Shown here in pieces: positions 24,614-47,758 of a stretch of 64,000 nt of DNA. The notes beneath the pieces were generated by a model. That model worked only from the letters and a program-made list of their open reading frames with translations, searched no databases and was not told where the DNA came from. A program made the translations under genes and the position numbers. Each line of letters begins with the position of its first letter. Position 1 is the first letter of the stretch. Source of the stretch: Microbacterium sp. 3J1 (GTDB lineage: Bacteria > Actinomycetota > Actinomycetes > Actinomycetales > Microbacteriaceae); contig NZ_CDWI01000007.1 of the NCBI RefSeq assembly GCF_001049495.1, positions 186,001 through 250,000 of the forward strand, in the 5' to 3' direction.

Positions 24614-27607
24614 TCAGCGCACGATGCGCAGCGTCCGCACCTCGAACGGCCGCAGGCGCAGCTCGCCGCCCACCCGCGCGTCGTCGATCTCGTCCTCGAT
24701 CAGCGACACCTCGCGGATCTCGCGGTGCTCGAACCCGGCCGCGACCGACCCGACAGTGCGACGTCCGAGCGCCTCGTAGACGCGCACGATGACGTCGCCC
24801 GACCCGTCGTCGGCGAGCTTGACGCCCGACACGACGATCCCCTCGCCGTCGACCGACACGAGCGGCTCGACCTCCCGTGCGCCATGGACGACGGTCGCGG
24901 GAGCGTTGAGGGCGATGCCCTCGGCGGTGGCGATGGCGGCATCCGCTCCGATCACGAGCCCCACCTCGATCTCGTGGTGACCGTGATCGGTGTCGGGGTC
25001 GGGGAACCGCGGAGCCCGCAGGAGCGAGAGCCGGACCGTGGTCGTGACGGCGTCATCCGACACCTCGCGAGCGGTGTCGTACCCGTAGATCGAGTCGTTC
25101 ACGAGCGCGACGCCGAAGTCGGGCTCGCGCACGAGCACGAAGCGGTGCATGGAGGTCTCGAACTTCGCGGCCTCCCAGCTCGTGTTCGTGTGCGTCACCC
25201 GCGACTGGTATCCGAACTGCGTCTCGGCGTCGGTGTGCGTGGCCTGGATGTCGAGCGGGAACGCGAGCTTCAGCAGCTTCTCGGTCTCGTGCCAGTCGAC
25301 GTCGTTGCGCAGCAGCACGGTGCGAGACCCCGGACGCAGCACGATCGTCTGCTCGATCGTCGACTGCGAGAACGAGCGGGAGACGGTGACGACGGCCGCG
25401 CCGTCGACGACGGATGCCGTGATCGCCGCGACGTCGGTGAGATCCTCGACGCTGTTGCGGTAGTAGCGGTCGATGTCCCACGCGTCCCACATGTTCGGGA
25501 AGTCCTGGTGCAGCTGGAACAGGTTGGCCGCACGCCCTTCGGCCACCGCGTCGCGACCGGTCCCCTTGTCGATCGCCGAGACGATGAGACCCTCGTCCGA
25601 GACGAGCACCGAGACGAGCTCGTTCTCGAGGCGCCAGCCCCCGTCTTCGCCGATGAGGGCGACGGACGACACCGCAGGCTCTTCGACGAGACCGGCACCC
25701 AATGCGCGTCCTTCGCCGACCGAGCTCGGCACGAACCGCAGAGCGTGGTCGCCCTCTCCGGCGAGGGAGCGGCGTGCGGCATCCGAGATGGCCTCCGCCG
25801 CCGACAGCACGCCGGTCAGCACCTCGACGGCCTCGCGGTGCACCCATGAGATCGAGGTGCCGGGCAGGATGTCGTGGAACTCGTGCAGCAGCACGGTCTC
25901 CCACAGCCGATCGATCTCGGCCTTCGGATACTCGGCGCCGGTGCGCACGGCATCCGTCGCCGCCCAGAGCTCGGCCTCGATGAGCGCGTGCTCCGCCCAC
26001 CGGTGCAGGGCCTTCGTCGCGTGCTGGCTGGTGAGGGTGCCGCGGTGCAGCTCGAGATAGAGCTCGCCGACCCAGACCGCCGGATTCGGGATCTCGGCGC
26101 GCGCGGCCTCGAAGAACACGTCCGGGTGCTCCCACACGACCTGCGCGCTGCCCTCGAGGTCGCCGAGCCGCCGGGCCTTGCCGGTCATCTCCCGCGTGGT
26201 GCCGCCGCCGCCGTCGCCCCAGCCGACCGGCGCGATCGACCGAGACGTCACCCGGCTCTCCTTGAACTGCCGAGACGCCTTGGCGACCTCCATGCCGCTG
26301 AGCTGCGAGTTGTAGGTGTCCATCGAGGGGAAGTGCGTGAACACCTGCGATCCGTCGATGCCCTCCCAGAGGAAGCTGTGGTGCGGGAACACGTTCTGCT
26401 GGTTCCACGAGATCTTCTGCGTGAAGAACCACTCGAAGCCGGCTCGACGCATGAGCTGCGGCAGCGCCGGCGAGTAGCCGAAGCTGTCGGGCAGCCAGAC
26501 GCCCTTCGACCGGATGCCGAACTCGCGCTCGAAGAACCGCTGTCCGTACGAGAACTGCCGCACGAGCGACTCCCCCGTGGGCATCACGGTGTCGGATTCG
26601 ACCCACATGCCGCCGAGCGGCAGGAACCGCCCCTCCGCGACCGCGGCCTTGACGCGCTCGTAGACCTCGGGACGGTGCTCCTTGAGCCACGCGTACTGCT
26701 GCGCGCTGGACATGCCGTAGAGGAAGTCCGGCTGCTCCTCGATCAGGGTCGTCATGGACGCCGAGGTGCGGGCCACCTTGCGGATCGTCTCGCGCACGGG
26801 CCACAGCCAGGCCGAGTCGATGTGCGCGTGGCCGACGGCGGAGATGCGGTGCGCGCTGGCCTCGGCCGGCGCGGCGAGCGCGGGAGCGAGCCGAGCACGG
26901 GCGTCCGGCGCGGTCTGCACGATGCGCTGCAGGTCGAGCACGTCGAGCGCATCGTCCATCGCCTGCAGGATGCGCATGCGCCGAGGTGAGGTCGCGGGCA
27001 GCTCGGCCTGAAGCTCGAACAGCACCTCGAGGTCGAGGGACAGCTCGAACACCTCCTGCTCGAAGACGGCGAGGTCGATGCGGCGGGTGCGATACAGCGG
27101 CTCGCGCGACGAGGTGCGGATGTCGCCCTCCTGCGTCGGCAGGAAGGGGTGGTAGTCGAGCAGCACGGGGTTGGCTGCCGCCTCGAGGTAGAGCTCGACC
27201 GGCTCGTCGCCGTGCGCCGCCTCGGTGATGGGCAGCCACTGGTTGCGCGGGTTGATGCTCTTGATCGGCGATCCGTCTGCCCGGTAGGCCAGCGCCTCGC
27301 ACTGGAACCCCGGCATGTTGATGTCGAATCCGAGATCGATCACGGCCTCGACCCGGCGCCCCGCCCATTCCGCGGGGACTGCGCCCGTGATCCGGAACCA
27401 GGTGGTCGACCACGCGGGCCCCCACACACTCGGCACGGATGCCGGCGCGAAGTCGAGCGCCAGGCCGTCAGCGGGGCTGATCGGCTCGCCGGGGAGCTCG
27501 TTCACCTCGATGCCCAGGGGGACGGATGCGGAGTGGATGGCCGGGCGGATGCGCTCGTTCAGGACGCGCGTGACGCGGCCGACGGTGAGCGAGGTGTCGT
27601 CATGCAT
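24614..27607 (-). CDS. GH38 alpha-mannosidase, cytosolic
   Basis: A 997-residue enzyme with the class II alpha-mannosidase layout: N-terminal beta domain, zinc-dependent catalytic barrel (about 250-560), helical middle domain and large C-terminal beta domains. The zinc ligands His262 and Asp264 (AHIDSAW), the nucleophile Asp374 (WLPDSFGY) and His578 (HEFHD) are all present. It removes alpha-linked mannose, in this family often alpha-1,3 and alpha-1,6. There is no signal peptide, so it acts on imported glycans. The ATG at 27607 has GGAGAA upstream. It is divergent from a LacI gene, with two shared operator motifs in between. Confidence 0.95.
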   Translation of the reverse strand: MHDDTSLTVGRVTRVLNERIRPAIHSASVPLGIEVNELPGEPISPADGLALDFAPASVPSVWGPAWSTTWFRITGAVPAEWAGRRVEAVIDLGFDINMPGFQCEALAYRADGSPIKSINPRNQWLPITEAAHGDEPVELYLEAAANPVLLDYHPFLPTQEGDIRTSSREPLYRTRRIDLAVFEQEVFELSLDLEVLFELQAELPATSPRRMRILQAMDDALDVLDLQRIVQTAPDARARLAPALAAPAEASAHRISAVGHAHIDSAWLWPVRETIRKVARTSASMTTLIEEQPDFLYGMSSAQQYAWLKEHRPEVYERVKAAVAEGRFLPLGGMWVESDTVMPTGESLVRQFSYGQRFFEREFGIRSKGVWLPDSFGYSPALPQLMRRAGFEWFFTQKISWNQQNVFPHHSFLWEGIDGSQVFTHFPSMDTYNSQLSGMEVAKASRQFKESRVTSRSIAPVGWGDGGGGTTREMTGKARRLGDLEGSAQVVWEHPDVFFEAARAEIPNPAVWVGELYLELHRGTLTSQHATKALHRWAEHALIEAELWAATDAVRTGAEYPKAEIDRLWETVLLHEFHDILPGTSISWVHREAVEVLTGVLSAAEAISDAARRSLAGEGDHALRFVPSSVGEGRALGAGLVEEPAVSSVALIGEDGGWRLENELVSVLVSDEGLIVSAIDKGTGRDAVAEGRAANLFQLHQDFPNMWDAWDIDRYYRNSVEDLTDVAAITASVVDGAAVVTVSRSFSQSTIEQTIVLRPGSRTVLLRNDVDWHETEKLLKLAFPLDIQATHTDAETQFGYQSRVTHTNTSWEAAKFETSMHRFVLVREPDFGVALVNDSIYGYDTAREVSDDAVTTTVRLSLLRAPRFPDPDTDHGHHEIEVGLVIGADAAIATAEGIALNAPATVVHGAREVEPLVSVDGEGIVVSGVKLADDGSGDVIVRVYEALGRRTVGSVAAGFEHREIREVSLIEDEIDDARVGGELRLRPFEVRTLRIVR

Positions 27608-27691
27608 GGTCTGGTTCTCCGGGCTCGACGGTGAGGGGTTGTGCCTGACGCGCGCCCGAGGGGAGGACGGCGTGAACAATGCTATCGGATT

Positions 27692-27708
27692 TACTAAAGC
27701 GATCTAGC
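27692..27708 (-). promoter_or_regulatory. LacI-type operator 1 of the mannoside regulon
   Basis: On the minus strand: GCTAGATCGCTTTAGTA. It matches the five-copy motif ACTANANCGCTTTAGCA at most positions and lies in the GH38/LacI divergent region. Confidence 0.65.
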
Positions 27709-27743
27709 TGACGATCTCCAGGCGTGTTCTGCTGCTTCCGGGC

Positions 27744-27760
27744 GGCTAAATCGATCAAGT
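27744..27760 (-). promoter_or_regulatory. LacI-type operator 2, overlapping the LacI promoter
   Basis: On the minus strand: ACTTGATCGATTTAGCC, the most divergent of the five copies. It ends on the first base of TAGGGT (27760-27765), the probable -10 element of the LacI gene, so it would give autorepression. Confidence 0.6.
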
Positions 27761-27772
27761 AGGGTGAAGCCC

Positions 27773-28801
27773 ATGACTTCGGGGAAACGCGTCACCATCG
27801 CGGACATCGCGCGTATGGCCGGCGTCTCACCGGGAGCCGTCTCCTTCGCTCTCAACGGCCGCCCCGGCGTGAGCGAGGAGACCCGCCAGCGCATCCTCTC
27901 GATCGTGGAGGAGAACCACTGGCAGCCGAGCTCCGCGGCCCGCGCCCTCGTCGGCGCCCGCGCGAACACCGTCGGCTTCGCGCTCGCGCGCCCCGCACGC
28001 TCGCTCGGCTCGGAGGCCTTCTTCACCGACCTCATCGCCGGCATCGAGTCGCGCCTGTCCGAGAGCAAGGTCAGCCTGCAGCTGCGCCTGGTCGCCGACA
28101 TCGGCGAGGAGATGGAGGTGCACCGGCAGTGGCGGTCGTCCACCCAGGTCGACGGCATCATCCTCATCGACCCGCGCGACGACGACCCCCGCAGCGATCG
28201 CATCGCGGCTCTCGACGCCCGCGCGGTGATGATCGGCTCGAAGCCGTCACCCGAGGGCGCCGTGCCCAGCGTCTGGATCGCCGACGACGAGGTGGCCGAG
28301 ACGCTCTTCTCCTACCTCGCAGCCCTCGGGCACACGCGCATCGCCTACGTCGCCGGCCCGGCCGAGCTCGAGCACACCCGCCTGCGGGCCGAGGTGCTGC
28401 GCGGCATGGAGGCCGACGGGGTCTCCGGCGAGATCATCACCACCGACTTCTCCCCCGCGCGGGCGTCGGCTGTGACGCGGTCGCTCCTCTCGGCACGCCT
28501 TCGCCCGACCGCGATCGTCTACGACAACGACGTGATGGCCGTGGCGGGCCTGCGAGTCGCTCAGGAGATGGGACGCTCGGTTCCGCGCGACGTCTCGATC
28601 GCCTCCTTCGACGACTCCGTCATCGCAGGACTCATCAATCCGTCGATCACCGCGATGACCCGGGACACGTTCGAGCTGGGCGAGCAGGCGGCCACGCTGC
28701 TGCTGCAGCAGATCGTGGCCGGGGCGAACCTGCCCAGCGCCCAGGGTCCGACTCCGACTCTCACCGCCCGCGAGAGCACTGCTCCGCCGGCGGCCTCCTG
28801 A
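27773..28801 (+). CDS. LacI-family repressor of the N-glycan/mannoside locus
   Basis: A 342-residue repressor. Residues 6-50 are the LacI HTH and hinge (VTIADIARMAGVSPGAVSFAL), followed by a periplasmic-binding-protein-like sensor domain. The ATG at 27773 is seven bases after TAGGGT, suggesting a leaderless start; a GTG at 27764 would add three residues. It sits between the GH38 gene and the GH5 gene. Five copies of a shared 17-bp motif at the promoters of this block make it the likely regulator; the inducer would be a mannose-containing sugar. Confidence 0.92.
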   Translation: MTSGKRVTIADIARMAGVSPGAVSFALNGRPGVSEETRQRILSIVEENHWQPSSAARALVGARANTVGFALARPARSLGSEAFFTDLIAGIESRLSESKVSLQLRLVADIGEEMEVHRQWRSSTQVDGIILIDPRDDDPRSDRIAALDARAVMIGSKPSPEGAVPSVWIADDEVAETLFSYLAALGHTRIAYVAGPAELEHTRLRAEVLRGMEADGVSGEIITTDFSPARASAVTRSLLSARLRPTAIVYDNDVMAVAGLRVAQEMGRSVPRDVSIASFDDSVIAGLINPSITAMTRDTFELGEQAATLLLQQIVAGANLPSAQGPTPTLTARESTAPPAAS

Positions 28802-28874
28802 CGACGCCCGAACCGTGCTCGGCACCGCCGTCAGTCGTGCGCCGCGCTGCCGTGCGTCGTGCGCGGCGCCGCCG

Positions 28875-30185
28875 TCAGTCGGCGACGACGGTGTTGACCG
28901 AGCCGTACGGGTCGACCTCGTCCGCCGCCACGTCGGGGCGGATCAGCCGGCGGATGCCGCGCTCCGCGAGCTGCCCCGGATCGAGAGCCGCCGTCGATGT
29001 GACGAAGGCGGGATCCTCGCCGGCCGAGCAGGCATCCACCCAGGCCTGGAACACGGCGCCGCCGGGGCTGAGTGCGGCCCGGCTCACCGGCACGTCGCGC
29101 TCGTCGACGTCGACCACGATCGCGGTCTCGCGCACGGGCGCGGCGGTGCGCTCGCGCAGCTCGGGGATCAGCTCTGCGAACCGCCGCCCGAGAGGTTTGG
29201 CCGCGCCGCTCTGGTCGATGAGGCCGAGCGAGTACTCCAGCTCGGGGAAGTCGCCGAGCTCCCTGCTCACGTCGTGCGAGCACCACCACGTCACACCCCA
29301 GAGGTTCTCGGTGCGAAGGGCCGACCGCAGGGTCGCCTCGAGGAAGCCGGGCATCTCGCTCTCGTCGAGGCAGTTCGACGGAGCCCCGACCTCCTGCAGC
29401 CAGATCGGTCGTCCATGATCGGTCGCGAAGGCGCGCGAGAGCTCGATGAGGTACTCGGCGTGACGGTCGGCAGCGACGGAGCGTCCGTCGTAGCGCTGCG
29501 CGGTGCCGTTGAAGATCCACGAGTGGATCGTCGTCATGGCGCCCAATCGAGAGGCGTGAGCCGGGGCGAAGCCGTGACCGTCCATGTACCAGACCGCGTC
29601 GTACTCGCTGTGGACATGAGGGAGTCCGGGAGCCGCCCTCTCGGCGGCGTCGAGCAGCGACCCGATCCACTGCCCGGCCTCGTCGACCGTGACCGGCCAG
29701 GGCGACGGATGCGTGTGCGCCGAGAACTGGTTCGTCTCGTTGCCGAGCGTCAGCCCGAGGAAGTTCGGGGCATCGCGCAGCGCGCCCGCGAGCCTCTCGA
29801 CGAGCGCGACCTGACCGCTCAGCGCCTTCGGGTCGGTGAACATGTTGCGGTCATGCCATGTGTAGAGCCACGAGGGCACGAAGTCGAAGCTCGACAGATG
29901 TCCCTGGATCACGTCGACGCTCGCATCGAGGTCGAACTCCGCGGCGATGTCGACCATCGCGCGGACGTCGTCGACGGCCTTGCTGCGGATCAGCGTGCGG
30001 TTGGGCTGAAGCACGGTCCACAGCGGGAAGACCCGCACATGGTCGAGCCCCAGCTCGGCGAGAGCCGCGAAGTCGCGCCGCACGTCATCGGGGGTGAAGT
30101 CGAGCCAGGAGTGCATCCAGTCCTTCGACGGCGTGTAGTTCGCCCCGAATCTCAGGCGAGCATCGAGAGCGCGGCGCTGCGTCAT
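28875..30185 (-). CDS. GH5-type glycosidase, probable Man-beta-1,4-GlcNAc mannosidase (GH5_18-like)
   Basis: A 436-residue (beta/alpha)8 enzyme of clan GH-A. The acid/base Glu150 lies in [10 protein letters not shown] and the nucleophile Glu265 in [10 protein letters not shown]. The opening [19 protein letters not shown] resembles, as I recall it, the GH5_18 beta-mannosidases that bifidobacteria use on the N-glycan core. No signal peptide is present, so it would act inside the cell on the last disaccharide. AAAGG lies nine bases before the ATG at 30185. Its promoter has TATAGT embedded in a copy of the LacI motif. Subfamily placement is from memory and context; another beta-mannosidase or mannanase activity is possible. 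Confidence 0.82.
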
Positions 30186-30233
30186 GTGTGCGGACCTTTC
30201 CGACAGAGCCCTCCGACGAGGACATGTCGCACC

Positions 30234-30250
30234 ACTATAACGCTTGAGCA
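30234..30250 (-). promoter_or_regulatory. LacI-type operator 3 and -10 element of the GH5 gene
   Basis: Plus strand: ACTATAACGCTTGAGCA. Its first six bases are, on the minus strand, TATAGT, a good -10 element about 48 bases before the GH5 start codon. Repressor binding here would block the promoter. Confidence 0.75.
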
Positions 30251-30303
30251 AGACGGTGCACGCAGAGATTCCTTGCCCTCGCCTGAAGCACGACCGACCG
30301 CTC

Positions 30304-30350
30304 TTGACACGAGCAGAATCGGATGGTTTCATCTGCTAAAGCGTTGTAGT
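30304..30350 (+). promoter_or_regulatory. Promoter of the glycan importer operon with LacI-type operator 4
   Basis: TTGACA at 30304-30309, a 17-base spacer, then TTTCAT at 30327-30332. The operator TGCTAAAGCGTTGTAGT follows at 30334-30350 and would cover the transcription start. Its reverse complement, ACTACAACGCTTTAGCA, is the best match to the motif. Confidence 0.8.
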
Positions 30351-30398
30351 CCACGAGTGTGGACCCCCGCCAATCGCCCGCCTCGAGGAAGAAGCACG

Positions 30399-31700
30399 AT
30401 GAGAGTTCCCGCACGCAGTGTCGCTCTGGCAACATTCACGATCGGCGCCCTGGCGCTCGCCGGCTGCACCGGAGGCGGTGCCGCATCCGAGGCCGGAGGG
30501 CCGATCGACACCTCCGGCGAGCTGAGCGGAACCATCCAGTTCCAGACCTGGTCGCTGAAGAACGAGAAGTTCACCCCGTACTTCGAGGATCTCATCGACG
30601 CGTTCGAGAAGGAGCACCCCGACGTCACGGTCGAGTGGCTCGACCAGCCGGGAGACGGCTACCAGGAGAAGATCCTCAGCCAGGCGAACGCCGACACCCT
30701 GCCCGACGTGCTGAACCTGCCGCCGGACATCGCCTACCCGCTGGTCGCCGCCGGAAAGCTGGTCGACCTCGAGACGGCCGACCCCGACCTGAAGTCCTCG
30801 TACAACGCGGGCGCATGGGACGCGTACAGCCAGTACCCCGGCGTCGAGGGCACCTACGGCCTGCCGTGGTACCTCTCGAGCGACGCCTCGTGGTGGAACC
30901 TCGCCCAGCTCGCGCCCTACGGCGTCACCGAGGAGAACCTCCCGACCACCGTCGACGAGCTGCTCACCCTCGCGCAGGACGTCGCCACCGAATCCGGCGG
31001 CAAGGTCCAGCTGCTGTCCTCGATCCCCGCTCTCGACACCTTCACGTCGGCGGGCATGGAGGTCATCAACGACGAGGGCGAGTTCGACTTCAACACCGGA
31101 GAGGCCGCCGCCATCATCGAGAAGTACGCCGACGCCTACGCCGCGGGTGCGATGCCGGCGGAGGCGCTGACCGGAGACTACGGCGGGAACGCCGAGGCGT
31201 ACATCCAGGAGAAGGTCGCTTTCACCACCGGCGGCACGGGCTTCACGACCGACCTCGCGAAAGACGCTCCCGCACTGCTGGAGAGCACGGTCGCCACGCA
31301 GCGACTCGGCATCCCGCCGCTCTACGTGCAGGGCCTCAACGTCTCGGCCGACTCCGACAACAAGGAGGCCGCCCTCGCCTTCGCCGAGTTCGCGACGAAC
31401 GAGGAGAACCAGGTGGCCTTCTCGACGCTCGCGGTCGGCACGGCTCCCGGGACCTCGGACGGAGGCGACGCGGTCGTCGAGAACATCTCGGCATCGGTGA
31501 CCGACGAGAAGCAGCTCGCCGCGATCGACACCGTGTTCACCGCGATGGAGGACGCCAAGGCCATCCCGTTCCAGTGGACGTCGGACATGGCGACGTACAT
31601 GATCCAGCAGATCGCGCTCGCCGTCAACGGCGAGGCCGACGCGCAGGAGCAGCTCGACAAGATCGTCGAGTACGCCAACGCGAACCGCGTGGACCAGTAA
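30399..31700 (+). CDS. ABC sugar importer (CUT1), substrate-binding lipoprotein
   Basis: A 433-residue family 1 extracellular solute-binding protein. The signal peptide ends in the lipobox LAGC (Cys at about residue 23), so it is anchored to the outer face of the membrane. The mature part shows the GTIQFQTWS opening typical of oligosaccharide binders. GAGGAAG lies upstream of the ATG at 30399. First gene of the operon with two permeases and the GH92 gene; context suggests it binds glycans released by the EndoH-like enzyme. No ATPase gene is nearby, so a shared MsiK-type ATPase is probably used. Confidence 0.93.
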   Translation: MRVPARSVALATFTIGALALAGCTGGGAASEAGGPIDTSGELSGTIQFQTWSLKNEKFTPYFEDLIDAFEKEHPDVTVEWLDQPGDGYQEKILSQANADTLPDVLNLPPDIAYPLVAAGKLVDLETADPDLKSSYNAGAWDAYSQYPGVEGTYGLPWYLSSDASWWNLAQLAPYGVTEENLPTTVDELLTLAQDVATESGGKVQLLSSIPALDTFTSAGMEVINDEGEFDFNTGEAAAIIEKYADAYAAGAMPAEALTGDYGGNAEAYIQEKVAFTTGGTGFTTDLAKDAPALLESTVATQRLGIPPLYVQGLNVSADSDNKEAALAFAEFATNEENQVAFSTLAVGTAPGTSDGGDAVVENISASVTDEKQLAAIDTVFTAMEDAKAIPFQWTSDMATYMIQQIALAVNGEADAQEQLDKIVEYANANRVDQ

Positions 31701-31703
31701 GCC

Positions 31704-32630
31704 ATGAGCGCGGACACCAGCATCCGAAGCCGGAGGACGACCATGCGATCGCACAAGTGGTTCACCCCCTGGCTGCTCCTCGGCCCCGCCGTCATCTGGG
31801 TGCTGGTGTTCGCGCTGTGGCCGTTCCTCAACACCGTGTTCCTGAGCTTCACCGACGCACGGCCTCTGCGGACGCCGGAGTTCGTCGGCGGGGCGAACTA
31901 CGAGCGGATGTTCGGCGACGAGATGTTCTGGAACGCGCTCACGACCTGCATCATCTACGTGGTCGTCTGCGTGCCCCTCCTCACGATCCTTCCGCTGCTG
32001 CTCGCGCTGCTCGTCCAGAAGAAGCTCCCGGGCATCTCGTTCTTCCGCACCACCTTCTACTTCCCGGTGATCGCGTCGGTGGTCGTCGTCGCCCTGATCT
32101 GGACGTGGCTTTTCGACAGCCGAGGGATCATCAACCAGACGCTCGAGTTCCTCGGGCTGGTCGACAGGCCGATGGCGTTCCTCGTCGATCGGTGGCTGCT
32201 GCTCGGCTGCGCCATCCTCCTCACCGTGTGGAAGGGCCTGGGCTACTACATGGTCGTGTACCTCGCCGCCCTCGGAAACGTCGGCAAGGAGCTGCACGAG
32301 GCGGCGATGCTCGACGGCGCCGGGTCGTTCCGTCGATTCCTCTCGGTCACCATCCCGTCCGTGCGCGGTGCCATGCTCCTCATCGCCGTCCTCATCGCGG
32401 TCTCGGCGATGAGGGTGTTCGCCGAGCTCGACGTGCTCTCCAAGAGCACGGGCGGCCCCGGCGGCTACGACATGTCCCTCGTGATGCTGATCCGCCAGGT
32501 CGGCTCCGGCCTGAACGGCAACATCGGATACGCGTCCGCGATCAGCGTCGCCCTGTTCCTGCTCACTCTCATCCCGCTGGCCGCGATCGCCTTCATGAAT
32601 CGCGAGAAGAAGGCGAAGGTCTCCGCATGA
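31704..32630 (+). CDS. ABC sugar importer permease (MalF-like)
   Basis: A 308-residue CUT1 permease with six transmembrane helices and the cytoplasmic EAA loop (EAAMLDGAGSFRRFLSVTIP) that docks on the ATPase. It follows the binding-protein gene after three bases and overlaps the next permease by four bases (ATGA). Confidence 0.94.
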   Translation: MSADTSIRSRRTTMRSHKWFTPWLLLGPAVIWVLVFALWPFLNTVFLSFTDARPLRTPEFVGGANYERMFGDEMFWNALTTCIIYVVVCVPLLTILPLLLALLVQKKLPGISFFRTTFYFPVIASVVVVALIWTWLFDSRGIINQTLEFLGLVDRPMAFLVDRWLLLGCAILLTVWKGLGYYMVVYLAALGNVGKELHEAAMLDGAGSFRRFLSVTIPSVRGAMLLIAVLIAVSAMRVFAELDVLSKSTGGPGGYDMSLVMLIRQVGSGLNGNIGYASAISVALFLLTLIPLAAIAFMNREKKAKVSA

Positions 32631-33562
32631 GCACTCTCAGCCCGCCCCGGATCGACGACGATCGTCGCCCCGACGAGCAGCCCGCTCCCCCCGCGCGCGA
32701 GCGCATCTTCCGCCGCCGCGGCTCGGGAGACTTCAGCACGCCGACGCTCGGCGGCCTCATCGGCCGATACGCTCTCCTGCTGCTCGTGCTGGTGCTCGTC
32801 ATCGGCCCCTTCGTCTGGCAGCTCTCGACCTCGTTCAAGGGGCCGCAGGAGAACATCTACTCCTTCCCGCCGAACCTCATCCCCCGCGAGCCGACGTTGC
32901 AGAACTACGTCACCGTCGCCGACATCGTCCCGGTGTATCTGTACGCCTGGCACTCGCTGCTCGTCTCGGTCGGCACGGTCGTCAGCAACGTCGTGCTCGC
33001 GACCTTGGCCGGCTACGCGCTCGGATGCATGCGGTTCCGCGGCAAGTGGATCGTGATGGCCATCCTGCTGTCGACCCTGCTGTTCCCGGGCGAGGTCACC
33101 GTGACGAGCAACTTCCTCACCATCCGCGCTCTCGGACTCGCCGACACACTCTGGGGCGTGTTCCTGCCCGGCGCCATCAGCGCGATGAACGTGCTGCTCG
33201 TCGCGACCGCCTGCCGCATGATCCCGAAGGACGTCCTCGACGCCGCGACCGTCGACGGCGCCACGACGTGGCAGCGGATCCGCCACATCGTGTGGCCCAA
33301 CATCCGCGGCATGGTCTCGGTGGTCGCGATCTTCGCCTTCATCGGCGCATGGGACGACTACCTCTGGCCCCTCATCGTGCTCTCGGACCCCGCCAAGTAC
33401 ACGCTCACCGTGGGGATGGCGTACTTGAACAGCAGCTTCTCCGTCGACCCGCGTCTCATCGCGGCCGGCACCATGATCGCGTTGGTGCCGATCGTGATCA
33501 TGTTCTCGTTCACGCAGCGCTTCTTCTTCAGGGGCGTGCAGGAGGGTGCCGTCAAGGGGTGA
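32627..33562 (+). CDS. ABC sugar importer permease (MalG-like)
   Basis: A 311-residue CUT1 permease with a disordered N-terminal tail of about 45 residues, six helices and the EAA-type loop DAATVDGATTWQRIRHIVWP. The start overlaps the preceding stop and the stop overlaps the GH92 start (GTGA), so importer and GH92 enzyme are made from one coupled message. Confidence 0.94.
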   Translation: MSTLSPPRIDDDRRPDEQPAPPARERIFRRRGSGDFSTPTLGGLIGRYALLLLVLVLVIGPFVWQLSTSFKGPQENIYSFPPNLIPREPTLQNYVTVADIVPVYLYAWHSLLVSVGTVVSNVVLATLAGYALGCMRFRGKWIVMAILLSTLLFPGEVTVTSNFLTIRALGLADTLWGVFLPGAISAMNVLLVATACRMIPKDVLDAATVDGATTWQRIRHIVWPNIRGMVSVVAIFAFIGAWDDYLWPLIVLSDPAKYTLTVGMAYLNSSFSVDPRLIAAGTMIALVPIVIMFSFTQRFFFRGVQEGAVKG

Positions 33563-36500
33563 GCACCGCGCATCTCATCCCGGCCGACGGTCCGGCCGAT
33601 CCCCCCTCCTCCCGGCCTCGTGCGGGCGTGCTCCGCGGACCGGTCCTCGCGTTCTCCTTCGATCCGTCGGCCGGCGAGCAGCGCGTCGAGGTGCCGGAGC
33701 TCGCGGACGTCCCGATCACGCGGCACTCCGTGCTGCACTGGGCGTTCTACGCCGACGGCGACGCGGCCACCCTCGCACCGCACGCGGCCCTCGCGGTGAC
33801 CGTCGATGTTCGCGGCGGCGACGGGACGAGACTCGGCGAGATCGCCGCCGTGCGCGACCGGTACGACTTCGCCCTCACCGCGGACGCGCAGTTCTCGGCG
33901 CGCTGGAGCATGCCCGAGCAGTGGAACGCCGATACGGTCTCGCTGGCCCCGATGCTCTCGGGGTCGGCGCCGCACACCTCCGTCACCGTCGAGGTGGTGC
34001 TCGGCACCGCGAGGCTCGCCACCGAGTCGGACCTGCCGTCGCGCGTCACCGGGTTCGTGCAGTTCGTGATCGAGGAGCAGGGCCCCGTCGCCGACGATGT
34101 CGCCCCCGTGGAGCGCGTCGACACACGCCGGGGCTCCCATTCCGGGCCGCGCTTCTCTCGCGGGAACACGATTCCCGCGGTGGCCGTGCCGCACGGCTTC
34201 ACGTTCGTCACGCCGGCCACCGATGCGGCGGACACCCGCTGGCCGTATCGTCCCGGCATCCACGACGATCCACCCGGGCGACGTCTCGAGGCCCTGCAGT
34301 TCTCGCACCAGCCGAGTCCGTGGATCGGCGACCGCTCGGTGCTCCAGTTCATGCCGTTCGAGGGGCACCCGACATCGGAGCCCGCCGCGAGGCGACGGTG
34401 GATCCGTCCGGGTTCCGAGCGCGCCCGCCCGCACGAGTATGCCGCGGATCTCGGTGGCCTGCGCGTGGAGATGACCGCGACGTCGCACACCGCCGCCTTC
34501 CGAGTGCACGGCGCCGACGGCGACGCGGCCGTCGGCTTCGTCATCGACCAGCCCACCGACGAGGGACGTCTGGTCTGGACCGATGCCGGCGGCTTCGAGG
34601 GGTGGACGCCCGAGGGGTCGGAGGACTGGGGCAATGCTCCCCGCTGCTACTTCGCGGGCATCGTGCTGCGGGGCGGGGGCGACGACGCGGCGCGCCTCCG
34701 CGGCGCCCTCGACGACGAGGGACGGGCACGGGTCGCGGGCTACGTCGCCGGGCGCGGATCGCTCGAAGTGCGGGTGGCGGTGTCGTTCCTGTCGGTGGAG
34801 CAGGCCCGACGGAGCCTGTCGCTGCAAGCACCGCCCGAGGCGACCTTCGACGAGCTGCGCGCGGATGCCGCAGCATCCTGGAATCGGGTGCTCGGGCGCG
34901 TGAGCATCCCGGCACTCGACGCGTCGGAGGCGCCCTACCGGATGCTGGCCGACGAGGAGAATCGGAATCGGATCGCCGCGGCCCTGCACCGGATGCATCT
35001 CTATCCGAACACCGCGGCGGAGAATGCCGGCACCGCGGATGCGCCGCGGCATCGCTTCGCCGATGTCTTCGCGCCGCGGGCGCCGTTCGGCGAACATGTC
35101 ACCAGCGCCCCCGTCGTCGACGGCGAGCTCGTGGTGAACAACGGGTACTGGGACACGTATCGCACCGAGTGGCCGGCTCTCGCGCTGCTCGACCCGGCGC
35201 TCACGGGCAGGCTGCTCGACGGCCAGCTCGAGCAGCACCGACGAGGAGGCTGGATGGCGAGGTGGAGCGCGCCCGGCTACGTCGACAGCATGGTCGGCAC
35301 CTCGAGTGACCAGATCTTCGCCGACGCCGCGCGGTGGGGCGTGGAGTTCGACCGCGCGGAGGCGTTCGAGAGCGGATGGCGCAACGCCTGCGAACCCGGC
35401 CCCGATGCACTGCGCGGTCGCAAAGGGATCGCGTGCGGGCGCTTCACCGGCTACATCTCATCGGATGTGCCGGAGGGCATGAGCTGGACCATCGAGAACG
35501 CGGTCAGCGACGCCGCGCTGGGCCGGTTCGCCGCGCAGCTGATGGACGACGCGTCCTCGCCGCAGGATGCCGCCCGCTACCGATCCTTCGCCCGGTACTT
35601 CGCCAACCGGGCTCGGTCGTACCGCGCGCTCTTCGACGCGGAGACCGGATTCCTGCGCGGCAGAGACGCCGCCGGCGACTTCGCCTCGGACTTCGACCCG
35701 CGCACGTGGGGCGGAGACAACGTCGAGACCAACGCCTGGGGCATGTCGGTCGGCGCCGTGCACGACGGAGCGGGCCTCGCCGCTCTGCATGGCGGCCTCG
35801 GCGCCTTCGGTCGGCATCTCGACGCCCTCTTCGCCGAGCCCGAGACCGCCGAGGAGCGATTCGGCGGGGCGTACGGCACCGTCATCCACGAGCAGCGCGA
35901 GGCCCGCGCACTGCGCTCGGGGATGTGCGCGATCTCGAATCAGCCTGCCCACCACATCCCCTTCATGTACGCGTTCAGCGACCGGCCCTGGCGCGCCGGC
36001 GCGCTCGTGCACGACCTCGCCGGGCGCCTCTTCGCGGGCGCGCACATCGGTCAGGGGTTCCCCGGCGACGAGGACAACGGTGAGATGAGCGCGTGGTGGC
36101 TGTGGGCCGCCCTGGGGCTCTATCCGCTGGAGCTCGCCGCGGGAGTGCTGCGGATCGGCTCTCCTCTCTTCGACGACATCCGCGTCGATCGCGGTGACGG
36201 TTCGTCCCTGCGCATCCGCTCGCATCGCAGCGAGCCGGGAGCGCACGTCCTGCGAAGCGCGCGGCTCGACGGGATCGATCTCGACACGGCCGACCTGCCC
36301 ATCGACGCCCTCGTCGGCGACGCCGAGCTCGTACTGACCTTCGGCAGCGACCCCTCCGCCGCCCTCGAGACGGGCCGGCACACTCCGGCGGATGTCACGC
36401 CCTGGCGCCGCGATCTGACGGCCGACGGAGGAGATGTCATCGCGTCAGCATCCGTCGTCGACGCGGGCCGCCTGTTCGACGACGGCGATCCGAGCGGTTC

Positions 36501-36795
36501 GAGCGGCGTCGTCCTGGCATCGGACGAATGGGCAGGCTGGCGTTTCGCCGAGCCGCGCGCCGTCTCCGACCTCACCGTGACGTTGCTCGCCGGCGCGCCC
36601 TCGTCGCGCCTGCGCTGGGAGGTCCTCGGCGCGGACGGATGCTGGACCGCCGCGGCGACCACCTATGACTCCGATCTCCCGGCAGACCGCACCACCCCGT
36701 TCGAGCTGGCGTCACGGGTCGTGACCTCGGCCGTCCGCGTGCGAGCGGACGCCGAGGTCACGATCCGTCAGATCGAGGTCTTCGATCTCGAGTGA
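33559..36795 (+). CDS. GH92 alpha-1,2-mannosidase with C-terminal beta-sandwich domain, cytosolic
   Basis: A 1078-residue enzyme. The core matches GH92: SHQPSPWIGDRSVLQFMP in the N-terminal beta domain, the catalytic acid Glu723 in NVETNAW, and the acidic pair in GDEDNGEMSAWW (residues 836-846), which contains the general bases. These Ca2+-dependent inverting enzymes trim alpha-1,2-mannose. The last 120 residues resemble a discoidin-like beta-sandwich. Most GH92 proteins are exported, but this one has no signal peptide, which fits intracellular trimming after import. The GTG at 33559 overlaps the permease stop. Confidence 0.9.
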   Translation: MSTAHLIPADGPADPPSSRPRAGVLRGPVLAFSFDPSAGEQRVEVPELADVPITRHSVLHWAFYADGDAATLAPHAALAVTVDVRGGDGTRLGEIAAVRDRYDFALTADAQFSARWSMPEQWNADTVSLAPMLSGSAPHTSVTVEVVLGTARLATESDLPSRVTGFVQFVIEEQGPVADDVAPVERVDTRRGSHSGPRFSRGNTIPAVAVPHGFTFVTPATDAADTRWPYRPGIHDDPPGRRLEALQFSHQPSPWIGDRSVLQFMPFEGHPTSEPAARRRWIRPGSERARPHEYAADLGGLRVEMTATSHTAAFRVHGADGDAAVGFVIDQPTDEGRLVWTDAGGFEGWTPEGSEDWGNAPRCYFAGIVLRGGGDDAARLRGALDDEGRARVAGYVAGRGSLEVRVAVSFLSVEQARRSLSLQAPPEATFDELRADAAASWNRVLGRVSIPALDASEAPYRMLADEENRNRIAAALHRMHLYPNTAAENAGTADAPRHRFADVFAPRAPFGEHVTSAPVVDGELVVNNGYWDTYRTEWPALALLDPALTGRLLDGQLEQHRRGGWMARWSAPGYVDSMVGTSSDQIFADAARWGVEFDRAEAFESGWRNACEPGPDALRGRKGIACGRFTGYISSDVPEGMSWTIENAVSDAALGRFAAQLMDDASSPQDAARYRSFARYFANRARSYRALFDAETGFLRGRDAAGDFASDFDPRTWGGDNVETNAWGMSVGAVHDGAGLAALHGGLGAFGRHLDALFAEPETAEERFGGAYGTVIHEQREARALRSGMCAISNQPAHHIPFMYAFSDRPWRAGALVHDLAGRLFAGAHIGQGFPGDEDNGEMSAWWLWAALGLYPLELAAGVLRIGSPLFDDIRVDRGDGSSLRIRSHRSEPGAHVLRSARLDGIDLDTADLPIDALVGDAELVLTFGSDPSAALETGRHTPADVTPWRRDLTADGGDVIASASVVDAGRLFDDGDPSGSSGVVLASDEWAGWRFAEPRAVSDLTVTLLAGAPSSRLRWEVLGADGCWTAAATTYDSDLPADRTTPFELASRVVTSAVRVRADAEVTIRQIEVFDLE

Positions 36796-36814
36796 TGACG
36801 CCGGGCTGAGGTCG

Positions 36815-38023
36815 TCATTTGGACAGGACGAACGACAGCTCGGTCGTGTTGCCTGCGACATCGAGCACCTGCAGCCTGTTCTGGCCCACGACCGCGCCGA
36901 ACACGCCGGGCTTCACGAAGTTCAGGTCGCTCCACGCGTCGTCGGTGAGGTCCTTCAGCACCCCGTTGACGTAGAGCCTGTCGATCTGGCCCTCGTCGTA
37001 GAGCCCGAAGCTGACGCGCTGGTACGCGCCGTCCGCACGGACCTTGGTGAACCGCGAGCCCTCCTTCACCGTGACGGTCGGCGACGTGGTGTCACGGGGC
37101 GCCGCCCGGTACTCCGTCGCCTCCCCCTTCATCGCCTGCGTGATCCCCGACAGGTAGTCCGACTGGTCGGTCGCCGTGAGGTTGTAGGCCACGTACACGC
37201 CGTATCCGTCGGCCACGGTGCGGTCCGCGAAGTCCGCCGCCGTCGCCGCGCTCGTGTTCGAGAGGTCGATCGCGGCCGCTCCGAGCCGCGTGCGGTCCTC
37301 GAGCCCGGGAACGGTGGGTGCGTCGTACGTCGGGTAGTACGGGTTCCAGGCGTAGTCGATCACGCCGGCCGCGTCGAACAGCGTGAAATCGGTGGTCGTG
37401 TAGCTCGGACCGATCGCGTACAGGCTGATGATCTTGTCGGGCCCGAGTCGATCGCGCAGCGCCGTGGCGAGCCATCCGAACGATTGGGCGTTGGGCTGCG
37501 GCGTGCCGTTCGCGCCGTAGTTCGTCCACTCGTCGTCGAAGTCGATGCCGTCGAGACCGTAGGTCGCCACGGCATCGGCCAGCTGGGCCGCGAAGGCGTC
37601 TGCCTGCTCGAACGACGTGAAGTTCGCGAAACCGGCGCCCTGGTGGTTGCCGAGCACCGACAGCAGCACCTTGGTGCCCTTCGCCTGCACCGGACGGATC
37701 TGCGTCTCCGCGTCGTCGAGCGTCTCGGTGACCCGCTCGTTGAAGTGCAGGTAGGCCTTCTCACCGTCGTAGTTGATGTTGGCGGCGAAGATCATCGCCA
37801 TGTCGATGGCCGCCTCGCCGGATTCGGCGAGGGTGTAGTCCGCGACGTTCGCTAAATCGTTCGAGTTCACCTCGACGTAGACGGCGAGCTTCGGATCCGC
37901 CGGATCCGCAACCTCAGCGGCTGCCCCTGCGGTTCCGGCGAAGAGGCCGGCAGCGGCGGTTGCGAGCACCCCGAGACCGGCGATGCCCCTGCGCAATCGG
38001 TGGTTCCTGACGTTCTGACTCAT
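36815..38023 (-). CDS. Secreted GH18 endo-beta-N-acetylglucosaminidase (EndoH-like)
   Basis: A 402-residue secreted enzyme. Residues 1-36 are a Sec signal peptide ending in an Ala-rich cleavage region. The GH18 barrel carries KVLLSVLGNHQG and the catalytic motif DGIDFDDE with Glu165 as acid, in the variant form seen in EndoH-type enzymes that cut between the two core GlcNAc residues of high-mannose N-glycans. The last 110 residues form a beta-sandwich, probably for carbohydrate binding. It is convergent with the GH92 gene and shares the regulon motif, so its products would be the substrate of the importer. Confidence 0.9.
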   Translation of the reverse strand: MSQNVRNHRLRRGIAGLGVLATAAAGLFAGTAGAAAEVADPADPKLAVYVEVNSNDLANVADYTLAESGEAAIDMAMIFAANINYDGEKAYLHFNERVTETLDDAETQIRPVQAKGTKVLLSVLGNHQGAGFANFTSFEQADAFAAQLADAVATYGLDGIDFDDEWTNYGANGTPQPNAQSFGWLATALRDRLGPDKIISLYAIGPSYTTTDFTLFDAAGVIDYAWNPYYPTYDAPTVPGLEDRTRLGAAAIDLSNTSAATAADFADRTVADGYGVYVAYNLTATDQSDYLSGITQAMKGEATEYRAAPRDTTSPTVTVKEGSRFTKVRADGAYQRVSFGLYDEGQIDRLYVNGVLKDLTDDAWSDLNFVKPGVFGAVVGQNRLQVLDVAGNTTELSFVLSK

Positions 38024-38084
38024 GACGGATCGTCTCCTTCGGCGTCGTTGTCGAATCGGGTCGCGACCTCGCGACCTGCCGCCG

Positions 38085-38101
38085 ACTATAGCGCTTAAGC
38101 A
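38085..38101 (-). promoter_or_regulatory. LacI-type operator 5 and -10 element of the EndoH-like gene
   Basis: Plus strand: ACTATAGCGCTTAAGCA. The minus strand contains TATAGT as -10 element, 61 bases before the start codon of the GH18 gene, the same overlap of operator and promoter as at the GH5 gene. Confidence 0.75.
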
Positions 38102-38143: not shown

Positions 38144-39841
38144 TCAGTCCGCGAGCATCCGGTCCCTGACCTGGCGGCGCAGCACCTTGCCGATCAGCGA
38201 GCGGGGCAGATCGTCGACGGCGGTGATCTGCTTCGGCACCTTGTACGGCGTGAGGCGCGTCCTGCAGAAGTCGCGCAGCGCCGTCGTGTCGAGCGTCGCC
38301 CCGTCGCGGAGAACGACCGCGGCCGCGACCTCCTCGCCACCGCTCGCTCGCGGAAGTCCGACGACTGCGGCCCCGACGACATCGGGATGCGCCATGAGGG
38401 CGTCCTCGACCTCACTGGGCGACACGTTGAAGCCGCCCGTGATGATCAGCTCCTTGAGCCGGTCGACGATCGTGACGAAGCCGTCGGCCGACACCTCGGC
38501 GATGTCGCCCGTGCGGAGCCACCCGTCCTTCAGCAGCACGTCGGCGGTGTCGCCCGGCCGACGCCAGTACCCCTGGAACACCTGCGGACCGCGGATGAGG
38601 AGCTCACCCGGCTCCCCGATCGGCCGGTCGACATCGGTGTCCGCGGGGTCGACGACGCGGATCTCCGTGCTCGGGAACGGCACACCGACCGTGCCGGGAC
38701 GCCTGCTCGTGCCGATCGGGTTCCCAAGTGCGACCGGCGAGCTCTCGGTCATGCCGTACCCCTCGACGAGGAGGCCGCCCGTCGCCTCCTCCCAGCGCTG
38801 CACGGTGGCGACCGGCAGGCTCATGGCGCCGGAGATGGCGAAGCGGACCGTCGAGAGGTCGATGGTCCCCCGCGACGCCGCGCGGGCGAGCTGGTCGTAG
38901 ATCGGCGGCACGGCGGGGAGGAAGGTCGGCGGACTCGTGCGTGCGGCCTTCGTGACGAGACCGAGGTCGAAGGTCGGGAACAGCACGAGCTTCGCGCCGA
39001 TGCTCATCGCGAAGGTCAGGCACAGGGTCATGCCGTAGGCGTGGAACAGCGGCAGCACACCGTAGAACGTCTCCTCGCCGTCGATGAGCCCCGGTACCCA
39101 CGCCCGACCCTGCATCGCATTCGCGCGCAGGTTGGCGTGCGTGAGGATCGCGCCCTTGGGGTCGCCCGTGGTCCCACTGGTGTACTGCAGCAGCGCCGTG
39201 TCGCCGAGCTCGGGCCCCTCGACCCGCCGCGAGAGCGGACGGTGGTCGACGAGCTTCTTCCACGGGATCGCGCGTCGCGCCGCCGGGGCCCCGGTCAGCT
39301 TCGCCCTCGACGCGCGCGCCTTCGGTACCGGCATCCTGAGCAGCAGCCGCGTCGACAGCGGCATCGCGGCCGTGATGTCGACGCTCACGATGTGCTCGAC
39401 CCTGAGATCCGACGGGAAGTCCGCGATCGTGTCGACGGTCTTGTCCCACACGATCGCGACCTTGGCCTCGTGGTCCTCGAACTGATGCCGCAGCTCTCTG
39501 GCCGTGTAGAGCGGGTTGTGCTCGACGACGATGGCACCGAGTCGCAGCGCGGCGTAGAACGCCACGACGTGCTGAGGGCAGTTGGGCAGCACCAGCGCGA
39601 CACGGTCGCCCTTGCCGACGCCCAGGCGACGGAGCCCCTCCGCGGCGCGCGCGATGAGCGCGCCCAGCTCGCGGTAGGTCGTGACGGCGCCGAAGAACTC
39701 GAGCGCGGGCCTGCGACCGTACGTCGCGACGCTGGCGGAGAGCATCTCCGGCAGCGTCTGCGTCGGCGTCTCTATCTCCGCCGGCACCCCGTCTGCATAG
39801 GAGTCGAGCCACGGGCGGGAGTCGTAGGGATTGACGGCCAT
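38144..39841 (-). CDS. AMP-forming acyl-CoA synthetase (long-chain fatty acid type)
   Basis: A 565-residue adenylate-forming enzyme. It has the P-loop YTSGTTGDPKG, the GYGMTESSP core, the hinge GWLRTGD, and the catalytic Lys in GKVLRRQV near the C-terminus. It activates a carboxylic acid, probably a fatty acid, to its CoA thioester. CAGGAT lies six bases before the ATG on the minus strand, suggesting a leaderless gene. It stands alone; the neighbouring sugar genes are functionally unrelated. Confidence 0.92.
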   Translation of the reverse strand: MAVNPYDSRPWLDSYADGVPAEIETPTQTLPEMLSASVATYGRRPALEFFGAVTTYRELGALIARAAEGLRRLGVGKGDRVALVLPNCPQHVVAFYAALRLGAIVVEHNPLYTARELRHQFEDHEAKVAIVWDKTVDTIADFPSDLRVEHIVSVDITAAMPLSTRLLLRMPVPKARASRAKLTGAPAARRAIPWKKLVDHRPLSRRVEGPELGDTALLQYTSGTTGDPKGAILTHANLRANAMQGRAWVPGLIDGEETFYGVLPLFHAYGMTLCLTFAMSIGAKLVLFPTFDLGLVTKAARTSPPTFLPAVPPIYDQLARAASRGTIDLSTVRFAISGAMSLPVATVQRWEEATGGLLVEGYGMTESSPVALGNPIGTSRRPGTVGVPFPSTEIRVVDPADTDVDRPIGEPGELLIRGPQVFQGYWRRPGDTADVLLKDGWLRTGDIAEVSADGFVTIVDRLKELIITGGFNVSPSEVEDALMAHPDVVGAAVVGLPRASGGEEVAAAVVLRDGATLDTTALRDFCRTRLTPYKVPKQITAVDDLPRSLIGKVLRRQVRDRMLAD

Positions 39842-39964: not shown

Positions 39965-41323
39965 TCAGCCCGCGGTCGCCTTCTCGTAGGCCCGCATCGC
40001 GGCCTGCTGGGCGTCCGCCAGGGCATCTTCCGCCGACTTGTCGCCGAGCAGAGCGGCGGTGACGGCGTTGTTGAGCTCGTCCTGGATCTCCTGACCTGCG
40101 GGAGAGGATCCGAACGACTCCCCGTCGGCGACGACGTCATAGTAGGTCGCGATGACCTGGTCGAAGCCCGCATTGCCGCTCTCGACGACCCACTGGTCGC
40201 GGATCGCCTGGTCGGGCTGGGGCGACCCGGTGAACAGCCCGGTGTTGATGCCGCCGTCGGCCTCCCGTGTCTCCGCACGCGCCTCGCCGGCCGCCATCCA
40301 CGCGTCGTCGGAGGTGAGCGCGATCATCCAGGCACAGGCCGCGGCGGGATTCGCCGCGCCCGCCGGGACCACGAACGCCGTGCCCGACGCCACCGTGAAC
40401 GGCTCGCCGTCGGAGTTGCGGAAGGGCACCGCCGCGAGCTCGACCTGGTCGACGTACGGCGAGAGCACGTTCGGGTACCACTGGTTGTTCACCTGCGCAC
40501 CCACCTGCCCTGCGACGTACTGGTTGTTGTCGCCGAAGGCGTCGAACGAGTCGGTGAAGCTCTTCACGGCCGCGAAGCCGCCCTGGGCGTCGGTGATCTC
40601 CTTGAGCAGCTCGATGCCGGCGACGTTGGAGGGATCGTCGAGGGTCGGCGCCCCCTCCTCGTCGTTGAGCTGGCCGCCGGTCGCGAGTATCCACAGTCCG
40701 CTCTGGCCCGTGGCGACGGGGTCGAACCCGAGCCGCGTGGGGACGCCGTTCGACTCCTGGTACATCTTGCCGATCGCCTCGAGCAGCACGTCGGGCTGCG
40801 ACGGATCGATCTGCTCGGCCGTGACCCCCGCCTCGTCGAGCACCGCCTTGTTCAGCAGGATGGCCGGCGGCTGGTAGAACTGCGGCACCGCCCAGACGGC
40901 GTCGTCGTACGTGACGTCGTCGACGACGGCGGGGTACCAGTGATCGCGGGGCGACACGTCCTGCGCCTCGAAGCACTGGTCGAGCGGCATGATGAGCCCC
41001 TGTGCGGCATACGTGGTCACGTAGCGCCTGTCCATCTGGACGACGTCCGGCACGTCGCCGCTGGCGATGCGCGTCGTGAACTTCTGGGCGTCGAACGCCG
41101 TCGCGTCGAGATCCACCTCGACGCCGCTCAGCTGCTCCGCCGCATAGTCGATCCGGGCCTGACCGACGTCATCCGCGTTCTCGAATCCCCACGCCGATAC
41201 GGCGCCCTCCGGCTCGGTCGTGAAGTCGGCGTCGGCGGCGGGTTCATCGCCGCCTGATCCGCATCCGGCCAGCACCACGACGGACGCGGTGACCAGCGCC
41301 GCTGCTGCGAGTGTCCTGCGCAT
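39965..41323 (-). CDS. ABC sugar importer (CUT1), substrate-binding lipoprotein (second system)
   Basis: A 452-residue family 1 solute-binding protein with lipobox LAGC around residue 21. GAGAGGAA lies a few bases before the ATG. It is the last gene of an operon whose first two genes encode the permeases. The sequence does not tell the sugar, and no glycosidase gene is attached to this system. Confidence 0.92.
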   Translation of the reverse strand: MRRTLAAAALVTASVVVLAGCGSGGDEPAADADFTTEPEGAVSAWGFENADDVGQARIDYAAEQLSGVEVDLDATAFDAQKFTTRIASGDVPDVVQMDRRYVTTYAAQGLIMPLDQCFEAQDVSPRDHWYPAVVDDVTYDDAVWAVPQFYQPPAILLNKAVLDEAGVTAEQIDPSQPDVLLEAIGKMYQESNGVPTRLGFDPVATGQSGLWILATGGQLNDEEGAPTLDDPSNVAGIELLKEITDAQGGFAAVKSFTDSFDAFGDNNQYVAGQVGAQVNNQWYPNVLSPYVDQVELAAVPFRNSDGEPFTVASGTAFVVPAGAANPAAACAWMIALTSDDAWMAAGEARAETREADGGINTGLFTGSPQPDQAIRDQWVVESGNAGFDQVIATYYDVVADGESFGSSPAGQEIQDELNNAVTAALLGDKSAEDALADAQQAAMRAYEKATAG

Positions 41324-41358
41324 GTGATTTCCTCTCTTCTGCGGCGCGGGGGCGCCGT

Positions 41359-43298: not shown

Positions 43299-43304
43299 GT
43301 CGTG

Positions 43305-43321
43305 AATGTAGAAGCGCTTCT
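43305..43321 (-). promoter_or_regulatory. -10 element and LacI-type palindrome of the second importer operon
   Basis: Minus strand: AGAAGCGCTTCT (43310-43321, perfect palindrome) followed directly by TACATT as -10 (43305-43310). GAAGCGCTTC cores are typical of LacI-family sites. It differs from the 17-bp motif of the mannoside locus, so a different regulator, not encoded here, is expected. Confidence 0.65.
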
Positions 43322-44114: not shown

Positions 44115-44157
44115 ACGCGACGCGAGCCGCGAACGCGAGGCGAGCCGTGACCTCGGC

Positions 44158-47095: not shown

Positions 47096-47102
47096 CGATC
47101 AC

Positions 47103-47756: not shown

Positions 47757-47758
47757 GA

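Follow-up and report, generated by a model that had tools for sequence, protein, structure and literature searches.

A predicted high-mannose N-glycan utilisation locus and its operator-like palindromes in Microbacterium sp. 3J1

A pathway for high-mannose N-glycans in Bifidobacterium longum was reportedly described by Cordeiro et al. in 2022, and Higgins et al. are said, going by the title of their 2021 paper, to have found N-glycan degradation genes common to gut and soil actinobacteria. The Protein Data Bank (PDB) structures 7lqx-7lr8 are presumably linked to the latter study. As reviewed, B. longum carries three GH38 enzymes and a GH125 (PMC10154615). Cutibacterium acnes is described as having a GH38/GH5_18 pair without export signals, and a cytosolic pathway has been proposed for it (PMC6160142). 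For complex N-glycan use in B. infantis the suggested regulator is NglR, which is described as paralogous to NagR (PMC9599254) and by that account is distinct from the LacI-family regulator of the locus reported here. This locus lies in a 64,000-nucleotide stretch of the Microbacterium sp. 3J1 genome, called the window below, and consists of eight adjacent genes, a regulator included: GH38, LacI, GH5_18, a solute-binding protein (SBP), two permeases, GH92 and an EndoH-type GH18.

We put the probability at about 0.85 that the locus feeds on high-mannose N-glycans and is controlled by LacI, likely through six copies of one palindromic operator. In the pathway that we propose, secreted EndoH would cut within the GlcNAc2 core and free Man(n)GlcNAc, which the SBP would capture and the two permeases, together with an ATPase encoded elsewhere, would import as a whole glycan. 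GH92 would trim alpha-1,2 mannose in the cytosol, GH38 would then take off alpha-1,3 and alpha-1,6 mannose, GH5_18 would split the remaining Man-beta-1,4-GlcNAc, and the products would be passed on by NagB and ManA, encoded elsewhere in the genome. LacI would repress all three promoter regions until an intermediate, perhaps Man-GlcNAc, binds to it.

Gene content and predicted enzymes

A first-pass annotation, made from the letters of the window and their translations, had the reading frames, families and coordinates of all the genes that it named correct; the LacI gene, although within the locus, went unmentioned. The genes are as follows.

24614-27607, minus strand: GH38 alpha-mannosidase (PF01074 at 304 bits, PF07748, PF09261, PF17677)
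27764-28801, plus strand: LacI-family regulator (PF00356, PF13377; start at 27764 GTG or 27773 ATG)
28875-30185, minus strand: predicted GH5_18 exo-beta-mannosidase (matches to GH5_18 structures)
30399-31700, plus strand: solute-binding lipoprotein (SBP) of a CUT1-type importer (PF13416, PF01547)
31704-32630, plus strand: importer permease 1 (PF00528)
32627-33562, plus strand: importer permease 2 (PF00528; ATGA overlap with permease 1)
33559-36795, plus strand: GH92 alpha-mannosidase (PF07971 at 317 bits, TIGR01180)
36815-38023, minus strand: GH18 EndoH-type endo-beta-N-acetylglucosaminidase (NF045482, Endoglyc_H)

To call the locus complete, as that annotation did, was an overstatement, as no ATPase, kinase or nag gene is among its genes. 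A UgpC/MsiK-type ATPase above the family cut-off (470 bits) is encoded outside the locus on contig C2, and nagB and manA are found on contig C11 of the same genome. GH125 was sought genome-wide and not found.

The GH18 protein scores 366 bits against NF045482, the NCBI equivalog model for EndoH, which has a cut-off of 300, and 287 bits to EndoH structures, while entries named chitinase reach at most 33 bits; a chitinase identity was rejected on these grounds. Its catalytic Glu165 closes the motif DGIDFDDE (158-165), aligned with EndoH in the pattern DGxDxDDE, and the enzyme is predicted to act on the core of high-mannose glycans. The GH5 protein is 85% identical (858 bits) to PDB 9y4v, the GH5_18 enzyme of Microbacterium oxydans, and scores 431-497 bits to GH5_18 structures from Streptomyces and Bifidobacterium, the highest of these being that of Streptomyces cattleya. 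Nine of its ten PDB matches, at 354-858 bits, are GH5_18 entries, BlMan5B and that of C. acnes included, and the remaining one, at 49 bits, is a different kind of exo-mannosidase; Pfam and NCBIfam searches with the protein gave no match. Residues Glu150 and Glu265, which lie in catalytic motifs, are invariant across 23 aligned sequences, and Glu150 is, by alignment offset, the counterpart of the mutated E153 in 7lr8. A mannanase or glucanase identity was rejected, both the sequence matches and the fold being those of GH5_18, and Man-beta-1,4-GlcNAc is the predicted substrate. The GH38 protein, the only one of its family in the genome, scores 789 bits to the alpha-mannosidase of PDB 7ufr and carries the motifs HIDSAWLWP (262-270) and LPDSFGYS (372-379), numbered from the ATG at 27607; it is predicted to act after import, on alpha-1,3 and alpha-1,6 mannose.

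In GH92, residues Glu723 and Asp839 (positions counted by hand on the alignment) align with Glu944 and Asp1058 of NnGH92, the catalytic acid and base, and Trp255, His777 and Glu778 align with Trp477, His996 and Glu997, which form the alpha-1,2 triad of the +1 subsite. We predict that the enzyme is alpha-1,2-specific and cytosolic. Its start and the stop of permease 2 share four bases, GTGA. All 27 related loci that have GH92 likewise show GTGA or ATGA where permease 2 ends, so the importer message very likely serves for translation of GH92 as well.

Export was judged by a simple hydropathy window and not by a signal-peptide predictor. GH18 and the SBP reach 1.94 and 2.15, against 0.92 for GH38, 0.92 for GH5 and 1.00 for GH92, and the N terminus of GH18 has a basic n-region followed by a hydrophobic stretch. 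The values in relatives are 1.70-2.64 for GH18 (24 loci) and at most 1.30 for GH5 (27 loci) and GH38 (25 loci). They range from 0.34 to 1.99 for GH92 (27 loci), of which two exceed 1.70, and since the test is weaker for this family the call of no export leans also on the N terminus of the protein, MSTAHLIPADGPADPPSSRP, which is without a basic n-region. The first-pass annotation had read the GH18 as EndoH-like with catalytic Glu165 and as secreted, the GH5 as resembling GH5_18, GH92 as translationally coupled to the importer, and GH92, GH38 and GH5 as devoid of export signals; these assignments stand, the cellular locations as predictions with which hydropathy agrees, less firmly for GH92. A second GH92 is encoded in the genome by a 2075-residue frame (L100, 5005-11232, on contig C8) with a signal-like N terminus and, at the C terminus, a hydrophobic membrane anchor followed by RRRR, and is probably of the exported kind. 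One cell apparently holds both an exported and a predicted cytosolic GH92.

Gene linkage and two cassettes on one core

The distribution of the genes was followed in 295 genomes of the genus, that of the window included, with the EndoH model cut-off and with E-value thresholds of 1e-50 for GH5 relatives and 1e-80 for GH92 relatives. EndoH above the cut-off is found in 41 genomes, GH5 relatives in 86 (identity is just 38-39% for three of these) and GH92 relatives in 74. Among the 41 EndoH genomes, GH5_18 lies within 12 kb in 38, GH92 within 5 kb in 39, and both in 37; two of the four exceptions (G030 and G023) are fragmented assemblies with the genes on separate contigs. A GH5 relative is present in 46 of the 254 genomes without EndoH. 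The Fisher p of 4e-24 for the linkage ignores kinship and is not relied on. The close linkage of EndoH to GH92 backs the proposed order of the degradation steps. Four genomes (G080, G081, G188 and G293) carry a GH92 that is 59-61% identical and have no match to EndoH or GH5_18. At G255:C1:3793313-3796518 GH92 is found as three matches, one with an internal stop, and looks broken, while EndoH and GH5_18 remain.

We then compared 80 of 119 confirmed loci around GH5 relatives, with flanks of up to 10 kb, several contigs being shorter. GH92 is present in 27 of them, and 24 of these also have EndoH, which faces GH92 in 17 loci (the clade of the window) and lies downstream of GH92 on the same strand in seven (L038, L043, L051, L052, L055, L056 and L059). 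Two M. oxydans records, L017 and L020, have the locus in full. In an SBP tree of 57 rows, all 27 GH92 loci fall in one clade with support 100/100, to which the SBP of the window belongs and whose two other members, L006 and L054, are on contigs that end within or just past the importer. A second clade of 21 SBPs has support 100/98, and the outgroups fall outside both. The GH5 tree mixes the two kinds of loci, with 8 label changes against 3 on the SBP tree.

The loci of the second clade have other accessory genes, which were found by tblastn with proteins from L026 and L041, one protein of each being identified: GH20 in 17 of 21, a GH18 with an EndoS-type barrel in 13 of 21 and a sulfatase in 10 of 21. 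The GH18 of L026 scores 289 bits against PF23916 (TIM-barrel_EndoS) and 178 bits against the NCBIfam model EndglycodaseB1, below the cut-off of 900 of that model; among solved proteins it matches best an entry named chitinase (226 bits), then a protein from a corynebacterium that bears the name protease CP40 and, among others, EndoS at 142 bits. The GH20 of L041 carries PF00728. No EndoH was found within the fetched flanks of the 21 loci, and none of the 80 has both EndoH and the EndoS-like GH18. The sulfatase, identified in L026 (8433-9956) as PF00884, stands between importer and GH5_18 in its ten loci (L024, L026, L027, L029-L032, L035, L036 and L040), which hints at sulfated glycans.

Judged by gene content and the trees, the locus of the window represents one of the two forms taken by a LacI-GH5_18-GH38 core, which is joined either to this importer with GH92 and EndoH or to another importer with GH20 and an EndoS-like GH18. 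Because endoglycosidase and importer switch together, with GH92 in one version and mostly GH20 in the other, the view that EndoH, the SBP and GH92 serve one glycan class is supported.

Operator-like palindromes and alternative readings

The palindrome CTNNANCGNTNNAG occurs six times at the locus, five times in three promoter regions and once inside the EndoH gene, and these six copies are likely operators bound by LacI. They are listed here without strand, unless one is given.

27694-27707: CTAAAGCGATCTAG, in the GH38-LacI intergenic region, conserved in relatives
27746-27759: CTAAATCGATCAAG, in the GH38-LacI region, 52 bp centre to centre from the copy at 27694
30235-30248: CTATAACGCTTGAG, upstream of GH5
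30336-30349: CTAAAGCGTTGTAG, upstream of the SBP gene
37852-37865: C TCG AAC GAT TTA G, the inner palindrome, from the last base of GH18 codon 53 to the first base of codon 58
38086-38099: CTTAAGCGCTATAG (minus strand), ahead of the GH18 gene and leading into TATAGT

In the window CTNNANCGNTNNAG has 7 matches where 0.58 are expected, and none of 100 shuffles reaches 7. Across 60 related loci, the window excluded, promoter sequence (49 kb) holds 171 sites and the other 1.08 Mb holds 26. Among 95 control palindromes built in the same way, which share the base make-up of the half-sites and are not independent of one another, the highest count is 7 promoter matches. The promoter of the SBP gene has a site in 50 of 50 cases, that of LacI in 46 of 51, of GH38 in 42 of 51, of GH5 in 44 of 60 and of GH18 in 17 of 24, counts that overlap in that divergent gene pairs share one stretch; three loci (L034, L037 and L064) have no promoter site. 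In this locus and in all 17 relatives the copy at the GH18 promoter leads into TATAGT, which may be a -10 box; repression through masking of that box would fit. The palindrome is mostly absent from 20 Lentzea-type and other distant loci (L065 and L067-L085). It does precede GH38, SBP or LacI in the Bifidobacterium loci L073, L075 and L083, mostly as CTAAAGCGATTTAG, and the operator may be shared across orders.

A tighter consensus has three exact matches genome-wide, all at the locus, and allowing one mismatch adds one here and one on contig C14. The 14 palindromes outside the locus never match this consensus exactly, so we claim no wider regulon. One of them, CTCGATCGGTTCAG at 45325-45338 of the window, stands alone, is richer in GC and is probably due to chance. 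A second importer set, an SBP and two permeases recognised from their translations, lies at 39965-44285 of the window (minus strand), past a ligase-like gene at 38144-39841; the scan of the window placed no palindrome in this stretch. At 46109-49621 (minus strand) there is a dnaK-grpE-dnaJ-like run, judged by protein N termini only.

Several observations weigh against a LacI-controlled high-mannose locus. The palindrome is not enriched in the 3.4-Mb genome as a whole, with 20 matches against 39 for the reversed control pattern, and is distinguished only by its clustering, six of the 20 lying within 10.4 kb (27694-38099). The motif was first spotted by eye in the three intergenic regions of the locus, which makes the search with the tighter consensus circular; the 60-locus test, from which the window was excluded, is not circular, but its loci are relatives. 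The SBP gives no ligand by homology, its nearest solved relative being named only "Substrate-binding protein" (95 bits). One genome (G207) has EndoH without GH5_18, another (G022) has EndoH and GH5_18 with GH92 not nearby, and three (G125, G134 and G210) have GH92 and GH5_18 and no EndoH. Finally, GH20 is also found in 5 of the 27 GH92 loci, so the cassettes are not fully separate.

The inner palindrome lies 234 bp from that of the GH18 promoter, a distance of 232-238 bp in relatives. It is found in all 17 fetched loci with facing order, identical in 16 and with one letter changed in L061, and is absent from all seven loci in which EndoH follows GH92 on the same strand. Its conservation might reflect constraint on the protein or its codons and not regulation, and intragenic sites can be passive; the altered letter of L061 would also suit this explanation. 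The codons themselves make it improbable. All 18 genes share the codons for N53, N55, D56 and L57, and 17 of 18 share that for S54, while the neighbouring codons vary. In nine genes of the window, with 457 leucine codons between them, TTA is used only at codon 57, and the 27 related loci hold 21 TTA in 10,026 leucine codons, of which 17 are this codon. All 13 other leucine columns of the EndoH alignment that are invariant in amino acid vary in codon, and five of the seven same-strand loci read AAC AGC AAC GAC ATG at this place, the other two encoding NNND(L/M). The simplest account would be that EndoH left the importer operon and acquired its own operators, of which one is intragenic. The inner site may act as a roadblock or loop anchor. 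That EndoH moved in this direction we infer; the same-strand order occurs in several separate GH5 lineages, and in 12 genomes of the genus sample against 27 with the facing order.

The substrate, too, can be read in other ways. Members of GH18 include chitinases, and the weak matches to entries of that name would allow a scavenger of GlcNAc-mannosides, acting on chitin or cell-wall sugars and unrelated to glycoproteins. We regard this as very unlikely in view of the EndoH scores given above and of the linkage of EndoH to both GH5_18 and GH92 in 37 of 41 genomes. A source in fungal mannoprotein, in which EndoH would free long-chain yeast N-glycans and the same enzymes would degrade what the importer admits, has more in its favour and is possible, although we think it the less likely source. 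EndoH is active on yeast N-glycans, Microbacterium often comes from soil and plants, the second GH92 of the genome is apparently exported and anchored, and the related NnGH92 is described as acting on yeast mannan. The genome, however, lacks GH125, and the locus, to which the check for these two families was confined, has no GH76 or GH99. This alternative differs from high-mannose N-glycan feeding in the source of the glycan and not in mechanism.

On balance we favour a wider view of plug-in N-glycan feeding in actinobacteria, which we hold with less assurance than the function of the locus itself. The LacI-GH5_18-GH38 core would take either a high-mannose or a complex-glycan cassette, and in one Microbacterium clade a flipped-out EndoH would have been re-captured by the same repressor through operators in its promoter and within its codons.

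Comparison with known systems

The kind of system is already known, and the GH5_18 enzyme of a congener, M. oxydans, has been crystallised (9y4v) and is under study; the cassette and its likely regulation are new variations on it. Searches by titles and abstract openings, which did not extend to subscription papers and preprints, found no paper on a Microbacterium N-glycan locus, and a GH92-EndoH import cassette in this genus, cassette exchange and the operators were likewise not found in the literature searched. A cassette of importer and endoglycosidase on a shared core offers a readable genomic cue to the class of glycan likely eaten. Beyond gut bifidobacteria, the logic of whole-glycan import would now cover Microbacteriaceae and Micrococcaceae too, where a predicted cytosolic GH92 replaces the additional GH38 and GH125 enzymes. 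The regulon outlined by the six putative operators can be tested directly, and the codon-embedded site offers a clean case in nature for asking whether a repressor acts within coding sequence.

The first-pass annotation had likened the locus to those of bifidobacteria, and the likeness holds for import of the whole glycan and fails for the trimming set. As in the reviewed account of B. longum, GH18 would release the glycan without prior trimming, the glycan would be imported whole and the mannosidases would be cytosolic (PMC10154615). Unlike B. longum with the three GH38 and one GH125 of that account, the Microbacterium genome has one GH38, a predicted cytosolic GH92 and no GH125, so the bifidobacterial trimming set of several GH38 with GH125 is not that of this genome. 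As here, GH5_18 has GH38 and an ABC importer beside it in the Bifidobacterium and Lentzea-type loci that were fetched. GH5_18 is reportedly also the last step of gut and soil actinobacterial N-glycan systems, whereas the import cassette of the present locus includes GH92 and EndoH.

The C. acnes system resembles this one in its pair of GH38 and GH5_18, with a GH18 in the locus of strain 266, and differs in that its locus has GH20 and trimming is proposed to take place outside; GH92 is not named in the available text of that report (PMC6160142). The N-glycan system described for Streptococcus pneumoniae likewise combines an endoglycosidase with an alpha-1,2 GH92, a GH38 assigned to the cytosol and an ABC importer that lacks an ATPase of its own (PMC5215778). 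Its GH92, however, works outside the cell, before release by the GH85 enzyme EndoD; GH125 is present, and the genes for endoglycosidase and importer lie apart from the GH92 locus (PMC5215778).

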